A stretch of 64,000 nucleotides of DNA from positions 1,240,001 through 1,304,000 of the forward strand of contig JAAHII010000001.1 in NCBI GenBank assembly GCA_010671905.1, written 5' to 3'. Shown here in pieces: positions 40,139-58,264 of the stretch. The position numbers were made by a program, and so were the translations under genes. Numbering within the stretch: the stretch's first letter is position 1; every line of letters begins with the position of its first letter. Source of the stretch: Leptolyngbya sp. SIOISBB (lineage in GTDB: Bacteria > Cyanobacteriota > Cyanobacteriia > Phormidesmidales > Phormidesmidaceae). Under the pieces are notes generated by a model. That model had not been told where the DNA came from. It ran no database searches and saw nothing but the letters and a program-made list of their open reading frames with translations.

Positions 40139-40903
40139 ATGGATAGAAAAGAGCTTCAGATAAGATACAACGCTGGCAAACGTGATTTTGCGGGGTTGAA
40201 ACTTTTAGAGAGTGAGCTGCTGCAGCTCAGGCTTAACAACATCAATTTCAGCCGCTCAGATCTACGGCAATCTCGTTTAGGTCGAACGCATTTTTGCCAA
40301 GCGAATTTTGAGCACAGTGATTTGAGCGAATCAATTCTGTGGGGCAGCGACTTGAGTGAGGCGCGGATGTCCCATGCCCGTTTGCGCGAGGTTGATCTGA
40401 GTGGAGCGAACCTTCGCCAGGCGCAATTGGTCGAGGTCAATTTGCTCAAAGCCAGTCTCTGTGGCGCGAATTTGCAGCGGGCCGATCTGTCGGGGGCTTG
40501 TCTAATTGAAGCCGACTTGCGCCCAACGGCTGACTCAAGAACCAATCTGATACAGGCCAACTTGCAACAAGCGGATTTAAGCTACGGGCGCTTAAGTGGG
40601 GCTAACCTACAGGGAGCCAATTTAGCTCGGGCCATTCTCCGGCGGGCTAACTTGGGTGTCGATTATCGTCCAGGGACTTGGCCGACGGATCTGCGCGGCG
40701 CAAATCTACAAGGGGCTGACCTCAGTTACGCCGATCTAACCGGGGTCAACCTAGAAGACGCCAATTTACAGGGCGCTGACCTCACAGGCACCTTGCTCGA
40801 TCAAGCCAACTTAAAAAAATGCGGTGATGCCCCAGGACTATCCCCGGCAACCAGGCTGCGAACCAGCAGGTTTAAAGGCGAGGGGATGATGGCGCCAAAT
40901 TGA
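40139..40903 (+). CDS. Pentapeptide-repeat protein (stand-alone)
   Basis: 254 residues. The N-terminus MDRKELQIRYNAGKRDFAGL matches the leader of cyanobacterial pentapeptide proteins. About 25 A(D/N)LxX units follow (LSGANLRQAQL, LQGADLSYADLTGVNL), forming a right-handed quadrilateral beta helix. Unlike the three pentapeptide genes at 53-58 kb, it uses TTA, CTA and TCA codons and is closed on the other strand, so it serves as a control for that finding. Role unknown. The in-frame start at 40040 adds residues without repeats. Confidence 0.88.
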   Translation: MDRKELQIRYNAGKRDFAGLKLLESELLQLRLNNINFSRSDLRQSRLGRTHFCQANFEHSDLSESILWGSDLSEARMSHARLREVDLSGANLRQAQLVEVNLLKASLCGANLQRADLSGACLIEADLRPTADSRTNLIQANLQQADLSYGRLSGANLQGANLARAILRRANLGVDYRPGTWPTDLRGANLQGADLSYADLTGVNLEDANLQGADLTGTLLDQANLKKCGDAPGLSPATRLRTSRFKGEGMMAPN

Positions 40904-51227: not shown

Positions 51228-52169
51228 ATGCGAATTTACAACGACGTTACCGCCACGATTGGGTATACACCGCTGGTCAAACTCCAGCGGCTGCCACAGC
51301 AATTTGGCTGTGTAGCCGAGATGGTCTTAAAGCTGGAGGGGGTGAACTCAGCCAAGTCGGTGAAAGATCGCATTGCCCTGAGTATGATCGAGGCCGCCGA
51401 GCAGGCTGGGCTGATTCAACCTGGGGTCTCAACGATTGTGGAAGCCACCTCTGGGAATACGGGAATCGGTCTGGCGATGGTCTGCGCGGCGAAAGGATAT
51501 CGCCTCATCCTCACCATGCCTGATCACATGAGCCCAGAGCGTCAGCAAATCGTCCGGGCCTATGGGGCCGAAGTCATTCTGACCCCAGGAAACGCAGATA
51601 TGGCCGGGGCGATCGCCCGGGCCAACGAGCTTTTAGCGACCCTCCCCCATACTTTTTCACCCCAGCAATTTAGCAATCCCGCCAACCCCAAAATTCATTA
51701 CGAAACCACAGGGCCGGAAATCTGGCAGGATACCGCCGGACAGATCGATGTGTTCGTCGTGGGAGTAGGCACGGGTGGCACCTTGACCGGGGCGGGGCAT
51801 TATCTCAAACAACAGCAGCCCAAGCTGAAGATTGTGGCGGTAGAACCCGCCAGCAGTGCGGTCTTGAGCGGTCAACCCGCCGGGTTGCATGACCTTCAGG
51901 GCCTAGGTGCGGGCTTTATCCCCGATGTGCTACGGGTTGATTTAATCGATGAAATCATTCCCGTCACAGAGGCACAAGCCTATGACTTGGGACGCCAGTT
52001 GGCCCAGCAAGAAGGTCTGCTCAGCGGCATTTCCACCGGGGCCGTAGTATTCGCCGCCCTGCAGGTAGGTCAACGGCCTGAGCATCAGGGGCAACGGATT
52101 GTGGCGATTCAACCCAGTGGCGGTGAACGGTATCTGAGTACACCCATGTGGGACGGTGGGAGACGCTAG
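51228..52169 (+). CDS. cysK: Cysteine synthase (O-acetylserine sulfhydrylase)
   Basis: 313 residues. The PLP lysine is in EGVNSAKSVKDRIALSMI (SVKDR). The substrate loop is EATSGNTGIGLA, and the phosphate-binding glycine loop is GVGTGGTLTGAG. The C-terminal GLLSGISTGAVVFAAL fits the PLP nitrogen Ser region. It makes cysteine from O-acetylserine and sulfide, so it also fixes sulfide in this sulfide-related island. Its 3' end abuts the relic of the giant minus-strand gene. Confidence 0.93.
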   Translation: MRIYNDVTATIGYTPLVKLQRLPQQFGCVAEMVLKLEGVNSAKSVKDRIALSMIEAAEQAGLIQPGVSTIVEATSGNTGIGLAMVCAAKGYRLILTMPDHMSPERQQIVRAYGAEVILTPGNADMAGAIARANELLATLPHTFSPQQFSNPANPKIHYETTGPEIWQDTAGQIDVFVVGVGTGGTLTGAGHYLKQQQPKLKIVAVEPASSAVLSGQPAGLHDLQGLGAGFIPDVLRVDLIDEIIPVTEAQAYDLGRQLAQQEGLLSGISTGAVVFAALQVGQRPEHQGQRIVAIQPSGGERYLSTPMWDGGRR

Positions 52170-54347
52170 TGCCGTTTACAGGCTCGCTCTCGTCGGTGAG
52201 GAACTGCTGATCTGGGTCATCAGGGACGATGAAGGTTTGGCTGAGCTGGCTGAGGAGGGGGCTGTCTTCGGTGAGGGAGACGGCAGTGGCGGTGGGCAGT
52301 TGCGTGGTCGGGTCACTGAGCGGAGTCGACGTGACTGCGCCGCGACTGTGCCACTGCTCAAGCAGGGCTTCGAAGTCGCCATTGGTGATGCCGACTAGTG
52401 GGGTGCTGCTGTGGGGCGCACTGAGGATGGTTTGGGTCGGGTCGCTGCTGGTGCTGCGGATGATGTCCAGAATCTGGAGCTCTAGCTCGGAGGGGAGCTT
52501 GCGGATGCCGGGGGCGAGGTAGGGGCTGAGGAGGCGGTAGGGGTCGACGAGGTGGCTGCCGTCGGCGGAGAGGGGGGCAGTAATATCGCCAGCGGTGAAG
52601 CTGCCGTCTTGAACGTGTTGGTCGAAGGCGGTGTAGCCTTGGATGAAGCCTGCCAGGTGGCCCAGTTCGTGCAGAAGGGTGGTCAGCAGATCATAGCGGC
52701 CATAGGCGGCGGAGTCTGCGGTAGCCTGGAGGTTGAATTCTGAATTTTGAATTTTGAATTCTGAATGCTCCCAGGGGGTGGGGTCGATGAACCAGCCGGT
52801 GCCGTTGGCGTCATTGTCGATGAGGATGGTGCCTGCGATGGGCTGGCCATCAGCGTTAAAGCGGGTGAGTTGCGCTTCGGCGAGTTGGCCGGTGGGGAGG
52901 TTAGTGATCTTGAAAGTGATACCTGATTCACTTAGCCATGAAGCAAAGTGTGCCAAGTTCATATCATGAAGTACTGACGAGCTATCGTGACTATCGGCAT
53001 GGAAACTGGTAAGCGCATTAGACCAATCTATGTAAGCTGTGAGGAACTGGTTCGGCGATACAACGCTGGCGAAAGAAGATTCGCTGGTGTCCATCTCACC
53101 GGTCCCAAAGGCCCCGCTTTTCTTAAGGGCGTGTGTTTGAAGCAAATCGATTTGGCTGGAGCGATCCTCGAAAGTGCTGTACTCAGCGATGTCGATCTGA
53201 GCTATGCCAACCTGCAGGGGGTTCGGCTCTCCCACTCGCAGCTCTCTCTCGTTGATTTCACCGATGCTGATTTGACTGGGGCTAACTTCCGCTTCTCTAT
53301 CCTCTATTACTGCAACCTGGAAGTTACTATTGCTCGCGATGTCAATTTCTTCCACGCCAGCTTCGAGGGCTCTTCCTTGCATCGAGCGATTCTGGAGCGT
53401 GCTAATTTCACCCAGGCCAACATGAGCAAGCTGAGTCTGTCCGGAAACGCTGCCTCCGTTGAGATCCAATACATGCACGTTCCTGACGCTGTTTTCTGGG
53501 ATACTACCTTGCCAGATGGCACTTACTTCAAGGGGTCCATGATCTACGACCAACCAGGAACTTGAGTTCGAATCGAGAGCGAGCAAAGGCGCGGAAGGCC
53601 GAATGATACCGTAGTCCTTGCGCTGCTCAAGCACTGCCTCAATTTCGTCTGGCAGATCTGAGAAAAGATCTAGCCCAGTTAAATCTTCTATCTCATCAAT
53701 AGAAACTATTGTGCTAAATGCGGAGTCTATCCAGTCTTCATTACCATGAACGGCATTGGTCATAAACACACCAAACGCCTTCGCCTCAAGGTTGATTTCA
53801 GAAGCAGATTGCCCGATCTTTTCAGGGATCAGAACTACCTTCCATAGATATTCAGGAATATCTACGAGAATATTTTCTTGTCTTAGTGTTGTGCTACCTA
53901 GAGATCCATCTCTTCCCGTGACCACATAAGCTTCTTTTTGACCGTTGGAGTTGTTGACAAATCTTGTTAAATCCTTTTCCAATCCCTGCCAAGCAAGAGC
54001 ACTAAAAGATTCAGGAAAAGCATTTGTCGTTAGGAACGTTTGCAATTGATCTTTAGCAATGTAGTAGTGTTCATTGCTGTCAGGGTTTACGTTGTGACTT
54101 TTAACAACACGGAAACGGTCTTCTCTGGGTAGCTGGTGACCGTTCGTGCCGTAGCCAAGGTCAGCCCCAGCATAGCTTTCAACTTTATTGGAAAATGGAA
54201 GCGCGTAATCAGAGCTGAAGCTAGGCCTTTGAGGATTGGGTGTACCATCTGGGCGAGCAGACCATGAACTATCTAGTCTGTAACTTACCCAATTGGGAGT
54301 CTTCAAAGAGTCATTGTACGAAGCTGCATATTCTGTTTTTCGATCAA
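52170..54347 (-). pseudogene. Giant surface-type protein, relic D (repeat and zincin-like C-terminal region)
   Basis: About 725 codons in the frame running from 54347 down. Order: KTPNWVSYRLDSSW, then a variable domain, then a STxQ/DIAxY-type repeat block that is exactly antisense to the pentapeptide gene at 52999-53565, then LPTGQLAEAQLTRFNADGQP, WFIDPTPWE, and a zinc-protease-like LLTTLLHELGHLAGF. The third zinc ligand expected of matrixins is not obvious. The C-terminus is lost: past 52170 the frame only reads cysK antisense. SEFKIQNSEFN is coded by a short inserted repeat. Large secreted cyanobacterial proteins share this layout. Confidence 0.65.
52999..53565 (+). CDS. Pentapeptide-repeat protein nested antisense in relic D
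   Basis: 188 residues from the ATG at 52999 (GTG 52987 alternative). The conserved leader CEELVRRYNAGERRFAGVHL is followed by degenerate pentapeptides (LAGAILESAVLSDVDLSYANL) and ends in LPDGTYFKGSM, near the usual pentapeptide-family ending. The minus strand is open codon-for-codon through the entire gene. No TTA, CTA or TCA codon is used. Whether both strands are expressed cannot be told from sequence. Confidence 0.55.
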   Translation: METGKRIRPIYVSCEELVRRYNAGERRFAGVHLTGPKGPAFLKGVCLKQIDLAGAILESAVLSDVDLSYANLQGVRLSHSQLSLVDFTDADLTGANFRFSILYYCNLEVTIARDVNFFHASFEGSSLHRAILERANFTQANMSKLSLSGNAASVEIQYMHVPDAVFWDTTLPDGTYFKGSMIYDQPGT

Positions 54348-54773
54348 ATAGTTGTTGCTGTCAAAGCCTGCCTCTTGCCCATTGAGAGTAGGATTGCCCA
54401 ATGCCAAATGCTCACTGCCAAAGCTTATGTTGTCAATGTATATGGTTTTGTTTCCATGCACCTCAATCCTCAGTGACTTTGCCACCTTGCCATACAGCTC
54501 CTGTGGAATATTGAGATGGAAGGTCTCAAATCCTTTGGAGGCATATCCAACTCTGTTGACTTGAGATTGGAAGTAAGGCTGGGAAAATTTTCCTATGATA
54601 TTGCCGTTTGCATCTATACCGAAAAGAGGATCGACTTCGCGCAGATCTATCGATGGAATATATCCATTGCCACTGGCATCCCTTAGTGGTGCAGAAAAGT
54701 CCTGTAAGTATTGATATAGCTGGATTCTCATGTTGAGAAGGGGAGGCATCCATGAGAGGCTGAAGTTCCCCAA
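54303..54773 (-). pseudogene. Giant surface-type protein, relic C
   Basis: Encodes MRIQLYQYLQDFSAPLRDAS, IDLREVDPLFGIDANGN and IEVHGNKTIYIDNISFGSEH, a beta-rich segment. Reading A3 at 54346-54348 as A4 joins it in frame to relic D (NNYFDRKTEYAASYNDSLKTPNW), so C and D were one gene. Its upstream end at about 54775 meets transposase-like DNA. Confidence 0.6.
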
Positions 54774-54788
54774 CTAACAACCTTTACC

Positions 54789-54860
54789 ATGGCGACTCCC
54801 CGGCTCTATCGTCAACTGATGACCCAACTGCGTCAATGGGTGCATGCTGTCGGGTTCTGA
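54789..54860 (+). mobile_element. Short remnant of a transposase start
   Basis: ATPRLYRQLMTQLRQWV followed by a stop. It reads like the first residues of an IS4-type transposase. It separates relic B from relic C and was probably left by an insertion and deletion. Confidence 0.35.
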
Positions 54861-55666
54861 GAGGTTAGATTATGACTCGTGAAGAACTTCTCGAAAGATA
54901 TGCCGCTGGGGAAAGAGATTTCTCTGGGATAGGCTTGGATGATGTCGATATCAGTAACGCCGATTTGAGGGAGGCTGATTTCAGTGGTGCCAGCATGAAC
55001 CAATTCTTCGCGGACGGTGCGAATTTGAGTAATACCAAACTGATCAGTTCTAGGCTCTACCAAGCTGGATTTACTGAAACTAATCTTGTCGGAGCTGATT
55101 TGAGTCGTGCTGATCTTGGAGACTGTTCCTTCCTGAGAGCCAACTTGAGTGGAGCTAACTTGAGTGGAGCTAACTTGAGTGGAGCTAACTTGTTTATGGC
55201 TGAACTCAGAGATGCCGACTTGAGCGGAGCTATCTTCTGTGAGACCTACATGCCAGATGGGAGCATTCGTAACGACAGTACCAGCGTTGCGGAAAGCTGA
55301 GGTGTAAAAGTCTTCTTCATCGGCTAACAATGATGCGCTTAAAAAAGCATTGATAGGGTTATCTCCAGGCCACGTAAAAGAACGATTCTCAATAACATCT
55401 TGGATTTCTTTGGATACGCTAGATAGAAAGTCGTATTGAATACCACTATCTCCATTTATTCCGTCTTCAAAGTTGAGACGATTCTCAAGCTGTCGAACCG
55501 TTAAAATCTCAGCGCCACCCACACCTTTTTCATAACCTTCAAACCACTGCTTATACTTTCGACCAAAAGTTCCTGGTTGTAGCGGTTCCGCATTAGGAGA
55601 GTAGATTGCAAACGCCCTTGTATTACTTTCGTTGATTTCGTCAATATTTATTCCGTTAGTGTCTGT
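54833..55666 (-). pseudogene. Giant surface-type protein, relic B
   Basis: Open from the IS edge (TDTNGINIDEINESNTRAFA) through QPGTFGRKYKQWFEGYEKG, SSVSKEIQDVIENRSF, then SSAQVGISEFSHKQV and three STQVS repeats, to ISFEKFFTSHNL and a stop. The repeat part is exactly antisense to the pentapeptide gene at 54872-55300. The gene is cut by the IS on one side and by transposon debris on the other. Confidence 0.6.
54872..55300 (+). CDS. Pentapeptide-repeat protein nested antisense in relic B
   Basis: 142 residues. The leader MTREELLERYAAGERDFSGI and the ending ETYMPDGSIRND are canonical for cyanobacterial pentapeptide proteins. Three perfect tandem 15-bp units encode ANLSG. Every leucine codon is TTG, CTG, CTT or CTC and no serine is TCA, which leaves the complementary strand open in register. 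It could be expressed or be a shadow of the minus-strand repeat. Confidence 0.55.
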   Translation: MTREELLERYAAGERDFSGIGLDDVDISNADLREADFSGASMNQFFADGANLSNTKLISSRLYQAGFTETNLVGADLSRADLGDCSFLRANLSGANLSGANLSGANLFMAELRDADLSGAIFCETYMPDGSIRNDSTSVAES

Positions 55667-55739
55667 AAGTTTTCGCCACCTTTAGCCATGAGTAGTTGAG
55701 GTGTAATCGGAAAGGTCCGCCCTGTAGGAACCGCCTTTC

Positions 55740-56099
55740 ATGAACATCAGCGACCGCGAAGCCCAAATCGTGCGCATCCAATCAACAAGCTTCCAACCGG
55801 AATTGCCATCCGCACTGGCGGCAACCTTGCGGCAAGCCGTGTTGGCGGTCACGAAAGTCACCCTCGAAGCCGCGTTGGTTGAAGAACGCGCTTCCCAACG
55901 AGCGCGGCAACCGGTATCTCTAGGCCGACGCTCAGGGTCCTTCACGCGGGTGCTCGACACCGAGCAAGGTCGCATCGATGCGCTTCGGGTGCCGAAGTTG
56001 AGGAGTGGCAACAAAGACACGACTTGGCAATTTACGAGCAGAGGAAAATTTACAAGTAGCAAGGTACTTGCTCAAATCGGCTTGCTGCCTGGAAAATAA
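55740..56099 (+). pseudogene. N-terminal fragment of an IS256/Mutator-type transposase
   Basis: The sequence RRSGSFTRVLDTEQGRIDAL then RVPKLRSGNK is the conserved N-terminal region of this transposase group. After GNKDTTW the reading leaves the family. The first 60 residues are a predicted helical DNA-binding part. Confidence 0.6.
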
Positions 56100-56417
56100 A
56101 ATAAACGTCACAGAAAGATTCTGGTCAACCACTGACCCGTTTCGATGAGTTCGTACAGCCCAGCGATCGCTGAGCATCTTGCCAACTGAATGAGGAGACT
56201 GTCTCTAAACAACGAGCATTCGGTGAGTCATGCAGTGATGTCAGGGCGAGTGAAAGTCATGCCACAGGCGGCATCCGAGGCGGAGCAATCCGGGGGAAGA
56301 AAACCTCGTCCAGGGAACTCGAGGATGTTGTGACCATCGAGGTTGTTGCTGACAGGCAGTTAGCAACCATTTTTTGATGAGCAGAAAAAATTAACAGCTT
56401 AAATAACCTGCCAAGTC
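56100..56417. other. Unexplained insert separating the transposase pieces
   Basis: About 320 bp, non-coding, with structured G-rich segments (GCGAGTGAAAGTCATGCC; GGGAACTCGAGG) that loosely recall group II intron domain I. No domain V or reverse transcriptase is present, so this is only a resemblance. Confidence 0.25.
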
Positions 56418-57434
56418 GTGAACAAAGAGCGGTCGTGGCAAATTCTTGAGCGTTATCATCGGGGACTCGGCAGTTTGATGAACTTCACCTTAAGTCTGTA
56501 CGTCATGGGACTTTCGTTGAGGGACTGGCAAGAAGCGCTGTATCCGCTGTTGGGCAGTGTGTTGTCCGTTAGTGCCATCAATCGGATCACGATAGCAGCG
56601 CAAACCCATATGGACAGTGACCGCCGAGCCAAACTGGTCGAAACCCCGCCCATCTTAATTGTGGATGGGGTTTGGGTCGATATTCAGGACCCCTCAGAAG
56701 CGACCAAAGTCGACCGGGCGGGCCATCTCCGCCCACTGCGTCAAGCTCAAGAACGGGTGCTCTTAACCGCCTTAGCCGTTTGGCCGGAGGGCCATCATGA
56801 GGTGCTGCACGATGAGATTGCCGCGCAAGAAGAGACCCAAAGCTGGGAAACGTTCTTTGCTCACTTGAGGGAACGCGGTCTCGACCCCGCAGCCGTTAAA
56901 TTGGTCGTCAGTGATGGGACCTTGGGCCTGCCAGCAGCGATGGCTCAATACCTGCCACAAGCTCAGCAACCGCGATGTATTACCCACAAAGTCCGACGCC
57001 TCCAAGAGTATCTCAGCTATGCTCAGTTACCCACCGAGGATGAGCAAGGGCAAGCCCTGAAACCTGCGCAGGCCAAAAAACAACGTCGCTATCAAATCCA
57101 AAGCGAGGCCTACGATATTGACAAAGCTGAGGATGAAGCCGAGGCACGACGACGTTTAGCCGCCTTTGTCGAGACCTGGCAATCGATGGAACCGAAGGCC
57201 GTTAGAACCTTTGAGCGCGATATTGACTTGACCCTCAACTTCTATCAGTTTGAGCGTCACCTACATCCTCACATTCGTACGTCGAATCGCCTCGAACGCT
57301 TGTTTGAAGAGTTTCGGCGCAAGTCAGATGAGATCGGTGCCTTCCCCAATGAGCGGAGCTGTTTGACCCTCTTTTTTCTCGTCGTTCAACGGGACCAGGC
57401 TAAACATGACCGTTCAAGCATGGCGAAAAACTAA
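56418..57434 (+). pseudogene. C-terminal part of an IS256/Mutator-type transposase
   Basis: 338 residues. It begins NKERSWQILERYHRG, i.e. at the point where the upstream fragment ends (GNKDTTWQ), so together they would make a full transposase of about 430 residues. Catalytic residues: Asp in LIVDGVWVDIQDP, Asp in LVVSDGTLGLPAAM, Glu in SNRLERLFEEFRRK. GTG start is formal; without its N-terminus the protein is unlikely to act. Confidence 0.65.
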
Positions 57435-57437
57435 AGA

Positions 57438-58264
57438 CACCAACGCATTCCGAACTCCGAACTCTCCCAGGGGGTGGGGTCAATGAACCAGCCGGTGCCG
57501 TTGGCGTCGTCGTCGATGAGGATGGTACCGGCGATGGGCTGGCCGTTGGCGTCAAAGCGCGTGAGTTGGGCTTCGGCGAGTTGGCCGGTGGGGAGGTCTC
57601 TGATATCTAATGTGATTTTTGGAAGTCCGACTGACGCTAAATCCCATATATAATCCTCCGAGCCGTATTCTCGAATAGAAGTCAAGAGGTATGAATCATG
57701 GAAGTTGAGGAGCTTTTGAGAAGATATGCTGCTGGCGAGCGTGATTTCAGAGGAGTCGACTTGAGAGAAGCTAAGCTCCGGGATAAAAGGCTGAGTAATA
57801 TAATTCTGAGCGGTGCAAATTTGAGAGGAGCTAGTCTGGAAGGAACTCACTTCATCGACGCTGACTTGAGTAGCTCCAATTGCAGAGATAGCCACCTTGC
57901 TGAGACTATTTTCCAGAAAGTCAACCTGGAATCCGCTGACTTCCGAGGTGCTGACTTCCTCCAAACGCTCTTTCTTAAGAGCAACCTCAGAAAGGCCAAT
58001 TTCTCCGAAACGCTGCTGACCGAGACTAGCTTCAACAAGTCCAACGTCAGCCAGACTAATTTTAGAGACGCCCAACTGTTCAGTCCCAGCAGGTTCAAAC
58101 AGGCTGTCTTCGACCAGACTATCTTCCCCGACGGAAGTATTCGAGATGCCCTTGAATAATGAGCTGTTGTGATCTAACTCAATACTACTAGCCAGTAGCG
58201 TTATTTTTGGGGATGGGCTTGAGAGGTATTGGCGGCCTGCGACTTTGAATAAATGTAAAATTTC
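57438..58264 (-). pseudogene. Giant surface-type protein, relic A
   Basis: Open from about 58264 (LFKVAGRQYLSSPSPKITLL, then SNTSVGEDSLVEDSLFEPAG) through repeat-like VGLVEASLGQQRFGEIGLSE and ISAIGATQVSVDEVSSFQ, to LPTGQLAEAQLTRFDANGQP and WFIDPTPWESSEF, cut by the IS. It repeats the LPTGQLAEAQ domain of relic D, so it is either a paralogue or a duplicated module. The repeat block is exactly antisense to 57698-58159. Confidence 0.6.
57698..58159 (+). CDS. Pentapeptide-repeat protein nested antisense in relic A
   Basis: 153 residues. Leader MEVEELLRRYAAGERDFRGV; repeats such as LSGANLRGASLEGTHF; ending DQTIFPDGSIRDALE. Canonical at both ends, 24 bp after GAATAGAAGTC. It contains no TTA, CTA or TCA codon. 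The opposing ORF extends 260 bp beyond its start and 105 bp beyond its end. Confidence 0.55.
   Translation: MEVEELLRRYAAGERDFRGVDLREAKLRDKRLSNIILSGANLRGASLEGTHFIDADLSSSNCRDSHLAETIFQKVNLESADFRGADFLQTLFLKSNLRKANFSETLLTETSFNKSNVSQTNFRDAQLFSPSRFKQAVFDQTIFPDGSIRDALE

Follow-up and report, generated by a model that had tools for sequence, protein, structure and literature searches.

Background

Genes that lie antisense inside other bacterial genes have been described in several settings. Proteogenomics of Nostoc PCC 7120 recovered novel genes opposite annotated ones (PMC8557916, in the excerpt available), and three antisense overlapping gene cases have been reported from E. coli O157:H7 (PMC9927249, likewise in excerpt). 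A review of antisense overlaps states, in the portion available, that aatS has widespread homologues and many embedded open reading frames (ORFs) are conserved beyond the genus, that the cases its authors analyzed individually are typically young, and that the function of long antisense bacterial genes is an open question (PMC7457138). Demonstrating that both strands of a piece of DNA are kept as protein code is rare in bacteria. Here we examine a candidate for such dual coding in a 64,000-nucleotide stretch of the cyanobacterium Leptolyngbya sp. SIOISBB (hereafter the window; positions are counted from its first letter), where three short genes for pentapeptide-repeat (PPR) proteins on the plus strand lie opposite longer minus-strand ORFs.

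NucA and NuiA are a nuclease and inhibitor of Anabaena, and NuiA is not known to be a PPR protein. A review of PPR proteins (PMC8145042), in the part available, contains the words "antisense", "overlapping" and "immunity" 0 times and describes neither a nested position nor a link to a nuclease. Among the matches listed from the open-licence literature, we found no published antisense or opposite-strand PPR gene and no PPR-nuclease pair. The explanation we favor for the nested genes is dual coding of both strands, present or recent, to which we assign a probability of about 0.88. The unit would be a conserved, codon-on-codon antisense pair, in which one strand encodes a short PPR protein and the other a giant protein of secreted type over whose linker the PPR gene lies; both frames would be translated in cells.

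Codon avoidance in the source genome

Read codon on codon in the antisense direction, the Leu codons TTA and CTA and the Ser codon TCA become stops. An earlier note on this DNA, made from the sequence alone, had remarked that none of these codons occurs in roughly 480 codons of the three nested genes, that a stand-alone PPR gene of the window uses all three, and that the minus frame "is (or was)" under selection. Both counts stand: there are 0 such codons among the 487 of the nested genes (56 Leu, 49 Ser), and the stand-alone gene has all three (Table 1). The codon-on-codon antisense frame accordingly has 0 stops in each nested gene, against 6/14, 2/12 and 1/16 in the other two antisense frames.

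The genome-wide count that the note proposed, nested against stand-alone, was carried out as a binomial test, not a permutation. The source genome (8.34 Mb, of a family that also includes Vasconcelosia minhoensis, G113) supplied 49 control PPR genes from the matches listed, 150 of 398 candidates having been scored, so that the set is a part of the PPR genes of the genome; control ORFs run from the first start codon, and some include non-repeat parts. These controls (18,439 codons) use the three codons at 859 of 3955 Leu and Ser positions, against 0 of 105 in the nested genes, where the synonymous frequencies of the controls predict 21.6 occurrences (P(0) = 2.4e-11; each nested gene taken singly, 2e-4 to 4e-4). 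Equal avoidance was not found in stand-alone genes, as 0 of the 49 are free of the codons.

The nested arrangement in relatives

Beyond the PPR-opposed region, the giant minus-strand protein carries a conserved module with the motifs LPTGQLAEA and HExxH (alignment A1). Scanning genome contigs with a profile of this module found 253 relatives, of which the best 80 loci were kept. An antisense PPR gene lies at most 2.2 kb upstream of the module in 36 of 45 cyanobacterial loci (each with at least 900 nt of upstream sequence) and in 0 of 32 non-cyanobacterial loci; some of the PPR-less cyanobacterial loci are distant or broken module copies. In 36 cyanobacterial loci the PPR gene stands in codon-on-codon register, and the frame opposite it is stop-free in 35 (L146 has one stop opposite the PPR segment, outside the gene proper). 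One ORF inside another, on the opposite strand, is the arrangement seen at the nested loci. L115, which shares its contig with the G113 match to the module, duplicates L096, and the copy was counted once; L171, L177 and L178, flagged by pattern as nested loci, are not PPRs and were rejected.

Two loci bear on how such genes are recorded and built. On a plasmid of Nostoc sp. TCL26-01 (L195) the annotated PPR gene was kept and the giant protein started after it, although the giant frame runs on without a stop through the PPR gene, over 4688 codons in all. At L132 (5119-6024, minus strand) the nested PPR gene has 302 codons and resembles a head-to-tail fusion of two PPR genes; its second half has a start-like motif of its own, and the antisense frame is open throughout.

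Across 44 nested genes (7414 codons), TTA, CTA and TCA occupy 0 of 1463 Leu and Ser positions, and five further named plasmid loci, including that of Anabaena cylindrica PCC 7122, likewise have 0. The set of 44 excludes the degraded nested copies of L112, L114 and one in L097, and a second PPR of L113 (0 such codons).

For a finer comparison, 16 nested genes were set against 25 PPR genes of the same 12 genomes (best-scoring matches) and against 12 non-nested PPR genes that adjoin the same type of nuclease; counts follow in that order. TTA and CTA give 0/323, 285/1046 and 117/367, and TCA 0/216, 35/537 and 8/205. None of the 25 same-genome genes (0/25) and one of the 12 non-nested genes (as trimmed) is free of all three codons, which the non-nested genes use at 125 of 572 Leu and Ser positions. 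GCA and ACA, which read as Cys in the minus frame, are also depleted (3/255, 258/908 and 42/303; 4/139, 57/333 and 30/113). The same is true of TTT (38/118, 116/165 and 73/100), so that the Phe codons of nested genes favor minus-frame Glu over Lys. General avoidance of A-ending codons is ruled out, since GGA (minus-frame Ser) is raised (108/248, 121/483 and 61/189) and GAA, AAA and AGA are not reduced. No clear change is seen in CCG/CCT and TCG/TCT (Arg), CCA (Trp) or ATA (Tyr), in a comparison whose control sets each included one wrong-strand ORF. Minus-frame Cys amounts to 0.3% in nested genes, 3.0% in the antisense of their own genomes' stand-alone genes and 2.7% in the non-nested set, and charge per residue is -0.035, compared with +0.030 in the stand-alone antisense. 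On sequence evidence, then, stops, Cys and the Lys that TTT would give are all avoided in the minus frame, whose net charge is negative. Because the avoidance extends to Cys codons and TTT, it would appear that the minus frame serves, or until recently served, as protein code. Avoidance in relatives, its absence in controls and the Cys and TTT effects together support the selection proposed in the earlier note, whose wording "is (or was)" is apt because the minus genes of the window itself are broken by a frameshift and an insertion sequence.

Conservation of the PPR frame

Differences within six pairs of relatives were counted by position in the minus-strand codon and bootstrapped (one non-aligning pair was left out upstream). 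The ratio of third- to first-position differences is 1.98 (95% 1.73-2.29) upstream of the PPR gene, 0.52 (95% 0.44-0.62) inside it and 1.60 (95% 1.37-1.88) downstream, with bootstrap ranges that lie apart. The fast codon position thus flips at the PPR borders, which argues that conservation follows the PPR reading between these borders and the giant protein beyond them. The pattern indicates purifying selection at the amino-acid level on the PPR frame, which within the overlap is the better conserved of the two.

With the closest ATG or GTG ahead of the start motif taken as the start, nested PPR genes begin with ATG in 39 of 41 cases and GTG in 2, and a Shine-Dalgarno-like motif precedes 27 of the 41 (shuffle mean 6.4, maximum 14). 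The start motif and the C-terminal PDG motif match those of stand-alone PPR genes, the three nested genes of the window match the PF00805 profile with tandem pentapeptides, and the same PPR type also exists non-nested beside the nuclease. The AlphaFold model of PPR B, a regular repeat with an N-terminal helix, is matched by Foldseek to HetL (TMq 0.43) and Rfr23 (TMq 0.81), and the predicted fold is a quadrilateral beta-helix. The codon evidence indicates selection on both frames of the antisense pair, and of two kinds: for amino-acid conservation on one strand, for composition on the other.

The giant minus-strand protein

In two giant copies, the Pfam domain order is nuclease, linker and module, followed by Ig, PKD, cadherin or Calx-beta repeats; the order from nuclease to module is the same in the 19 copies of alignment A2, and the minus open frames of relatives reach 9824 codons. 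RGH is the catalytic motif of the DNA/RNA non-specific endonucleases (PF01223). It is present in most giant copies and was not found in window copy A, its paralogue on contig 2, L126 or L199; the PF01223 profile matches window copy A (Table 1), L133 and L096. Of the class's 388 genomes, 28 contain a match to the copy-A module at E<=0.001, in some cases only a weak or partial one. The module is no more than weakly related to matrixins: 7 of 18 members match Matrixin at E<=0.1 (best E 0.0017), and the first member scores 13.3 bits, under the curated PF00413 cut-off of 24. Genes for an ABC transporter and a peptidyl-prolyl isomerase are close by in 2 of 7 nested plasmid regions (one of the other five is without annotation), and these neighboring genes suggest that the giant protein may be secreted.

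A low-confidence AlphaFold model of a Vasconcelosia copy of the giant protein (743 residues, 19 sequences, mean pLDDT 50, pTM 0.42) gives pLDDT 59-88 for the later part of the nuclease, 61-77 for the first half of the module and 41-67 for its HExxH half. The PPR-opposed stretch scores 21-33 with almost no secondary structure, and is probably disordered. Opposite the PPR, the minus frame would encode a linker, constrained in composition, within a giant nuclease/adhesin-like protein. Such an overlap may be affordable since the PPR reading folds rigidly and the minus reading is a tolerant linker, probably a disordered one; pairing a rigid repeat fold with disorder on the other strand suggests a general route to dual coding.

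Is the nuclease the partner of the PPR?

In G123 and Oscillatoria PCC 7112, a non-nested PPR gene on the opposite strand lies 127-221 nt after 7 of 8 nuclease domains; in these non-nested relatives the nuclease sits near the end of its ORF, and the small gene comes next. A link of PPR genes with all non-specific nucleases is ruled out, as a PPR is nearby at 1 of the 30 best-scoring PF01223 loci in 117 genomes; almost all of these are short nucleases that stand alone, and the flanks measure about 1.4 kb in most cases and less in a few. A tree of 71 nuclease domains intermingles nested and non-nested PPR-linked nucleases and places them outside a clade of 32 NucA-type domains. The nested rows carry ten cyanobacterial family labels, and a single nuclease clade for the nested arrangement was not found (9 changes for the nested label). 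Opposite-strand PPR genes without nesting and the mixed nuclease tree together point to a functional link between PPR and nuclease. The presence of the module at nested loci is no evidence of partnership, because nested copies were found by means of the module.

As a first and tentative functional guess, the PPR may act in the cytoplasm as an immunity protein against the nuclease, perhaps by mimicking DNA. Toxin and immunity would then occupy two strands, a DNA-mimicking inhibitor being encoded antisense over a disordered linker, and would be inherited and exchanged as one piece. The alternatives in which the PPR acts on something else are, taken together, more likely. Dual coding might be real and the PPR unrelated to the nuclease, being a partner of the module, a passenger on a mobile unit or a protein acting elsewhere in the cell, and we give this nearly an even chance. 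It draws on the nested loci without a nuclease, at seven of which (L117, L121, L122, L124, L129, L155 and L160) a Y1/IS200-like transposase gene, convergent with the PPR, ends 60-190 nt from the PPR stop; two of these genes score over the Pfam cut-off, three under it, and two are recognized by alignment only. We take them to be RAYT-like. The opposite-strand PPR genes that follow nucleases without nesting and the mixed nuclease tree both count against this alternative. Nested loci that lack a nuclease could represent orphaned immunity genes, or else a mobile unit; their PPR region is still stop-free, with avoided codons at 0 of 406.

Alternative explanations

Several observations weigh against dual coding or against the proposed partnership. 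The degraded nested copies left out of the 44-gene set do hold avoided codons (L112 5, L114 3, the L097 copy 2), and five of the 44 (window B, window C, G057, G025 and G293) were picked with their zero count visible. CTT, the other route to minus-frame Lys, is unchanged in nested genes (in the comparison with one wrong-strand ORF per control set). The minus-frame Arg codons GCG (10/255 nested, 131/908 same-genome, 21/303 non-nested) and ACG (8/139, 75/333 and 4/113) drop against the same-genome controls, neither being clearly lower than in the non-nested set. This drop, and a rise of AGA and CGA (Ser), are not, or hardly, upheld against the non-nested genes, so general Arg avoidance, seen against the same-genome controls only, is not claimed. 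The minus amino-acid sequence changes faster than that of the PPR, and its role may therefore be only that of an open spacer. The Shine-Dalgarno-like motif lies in DNA that doubles as code for LQN, which is conserved on the minus strand; the charge of nested PPR proteins shows no clear difference from that of stand-alone ones (P = 0.058); and the linker model, from 19 sequences, rests on an alignment shallow enough to weaken the claim of disorder. As to the nuclease, it was found at 23 of 36 nested loci and not found in 13 (each with at least 1.5 kb of upstream sequence). The minus ORFs of those 13 span 173-795 codons, several without HExxH, and the eighth pair of the non-nested series (L234, 108-662) has its PPR on the nuclease's own strand, 31 nt after the domain.

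If only the PPR genes were real, with the minus frame open by chance or codon bias, the PPR frame would be the better conserved one, as it is. Such openness is ruled out by the zero counts in the source genome and the 44 nested genes together with both control sets, and with Cys- and Lys-specific avoidance, conserved minus domains on both sides in very long open frames and the minus position pattern in both flanks, the idea is exceedingly improbable. The converse, in which only the giant gene is real and the PPR ORF is an accidental antisense of its Gln/Ile/Ser repeats, agrees with several records that annotate only the giant gene at nested loci (the gene table is incomplete). The codon-position test rules it out, PPR-frame third positions varying most inside the overlap; the shared start and PDG motifs, Shine-Dalgarno-like motifs, ATG and GTG starts, confident fold model (pLDDT 96) and non-nested occurrence beside the nuclease agree in making it very improbable. 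An ancestral pair of which only the PPR still matters in many present copies is unlikely, although it would account for the frameshifted or cut copies in the window, the truncated minus ORFs of nuclease-less loci and the avoided codons regained by three degraded copies. Against it, 22 of the nested loci listed keep a minus frame of at least 266 stop-free codons upstream of the PPR, and the nuclease-less loci show no return of the avoided codons. Dual coding, present or recent, is thus retained as the best explanation.

State of the copies in the window

The window holds three decayed copies of the unit, in which all three PPR genes are intact and the minus genes are broken (Table 1). Minus ORF A is 80% identical to a paralogue on the second contig of the genome (over paralogue aa 1180-1905), which is intact as a 2510-codon open frame; a frameshift near 54340, judged against this paralogue, moves the match from frame -2 to frame -1. 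Copies B and C are incomplete and split by an insertion sequence with 25-nt inverted ends (84% complementary) and a transposase in two ORFs (55740-56099 and 56418-57434), at which no clear target-site duplication was seen. The nuclease remnant of minus ORF B is at 25% identity (E = 1.5e-4). The open stretch of minus ORF C begins inside PPR gene C, and gene C starts beyond the end of minus ORF C. In genome G000 (C1:1400869-1401180), the C-terminal end of a short PPR ORF resembles the start of the minus ORF at 54303-54773, on the same strand; it is possibly a rearranged relic.

Table 1. Features of the nested loci and the control gene, in window coordinates
Feature	Position	Strand	Remarks
Nested PPR gene A	52999-53565	+	ATG start, GTG at 52987 also possible; PF00805 E=1.6e-22; 0 TTA/CTA/TCA
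Nested PPR gene B	54872-55300	+	PF00805 E=9.9e-25; AlphaFold pLDDT 96
Nested PPR gene C	57698-58159	+	PF00805 E=5.6e-26; 0 TTA/CTA/TCA
Minus ORF A	52021-54306	-	Nuclease domain, antisense-PPR linker, HExxH module; PF01223 E=9.8e-16
Gene A, part upstream of frameshift	54303-54773	-	98% identical to contig-2 paralogue aa 1067-1181; frame -2
DNA/RNA non-specific endonuclease domain, copy A	53617-54321	-	A2-alignment profile E=2.1e-37; no [RKQ]GH motif found
LPTGQ...HELGH module (matrixin-like), copy A	52603-53007	-	Weak Matrixin match only
Minus ORF B	54833-55522	-	Weak C-terminal nuclease remnant and antisense-PPR linker; no module after it in the ORF
Minus ORF C	57431-58075	-	Antisense-PPR linker and shortened module (57446-57619, 81% identity)
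Mutator-family insertion sequence	55654-57445		Between copies B and C; PF00872 E=1.4e-46
Stand-alone PPR control gene	40139-40903	+	TTA 7, CTA 7, TCA 3 among 63 Leu and Ser codons

Comparison with known systems

None of the six annotated nested records viewed lists both genes as overlapping (their gene table is incomplete, and a seventh record is empty there), and such pairs may therefore be lost from annotation. If the immunity reading is true, the locus resembles polymorphic toxin-immunity loci in that, in the non-nested relatives, a small gene follows the nuclease near the end of its ORF. It differs from them in that the two genes are mostly on opposite strands; where they are nested, moreover, the nuclease has an internal position and the large gene encloses the small one. 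With NucA/NuiA of Anabaena it shares the nuclease family PF01223, and an inhibitor protein would be analogous; at 29 of the 30 best-scoring loci of that family the flank contains no PPR. The PPR proteins themselves are like HetL, Rfr23, MfpA and Qnr in repeat, predicted fold and family profile. As in other bacterial antisense overlapping genes, one gene lies antisense inside another. Unlike the antisense cases of PMC7457138, in the portion available, here both partners belong to recognized families with recognized domains, the pair recurs in dozens of loci, the nested rows of the nuclease tree span ten cyanobacterial family labels, and there is codon-level support for both frames.
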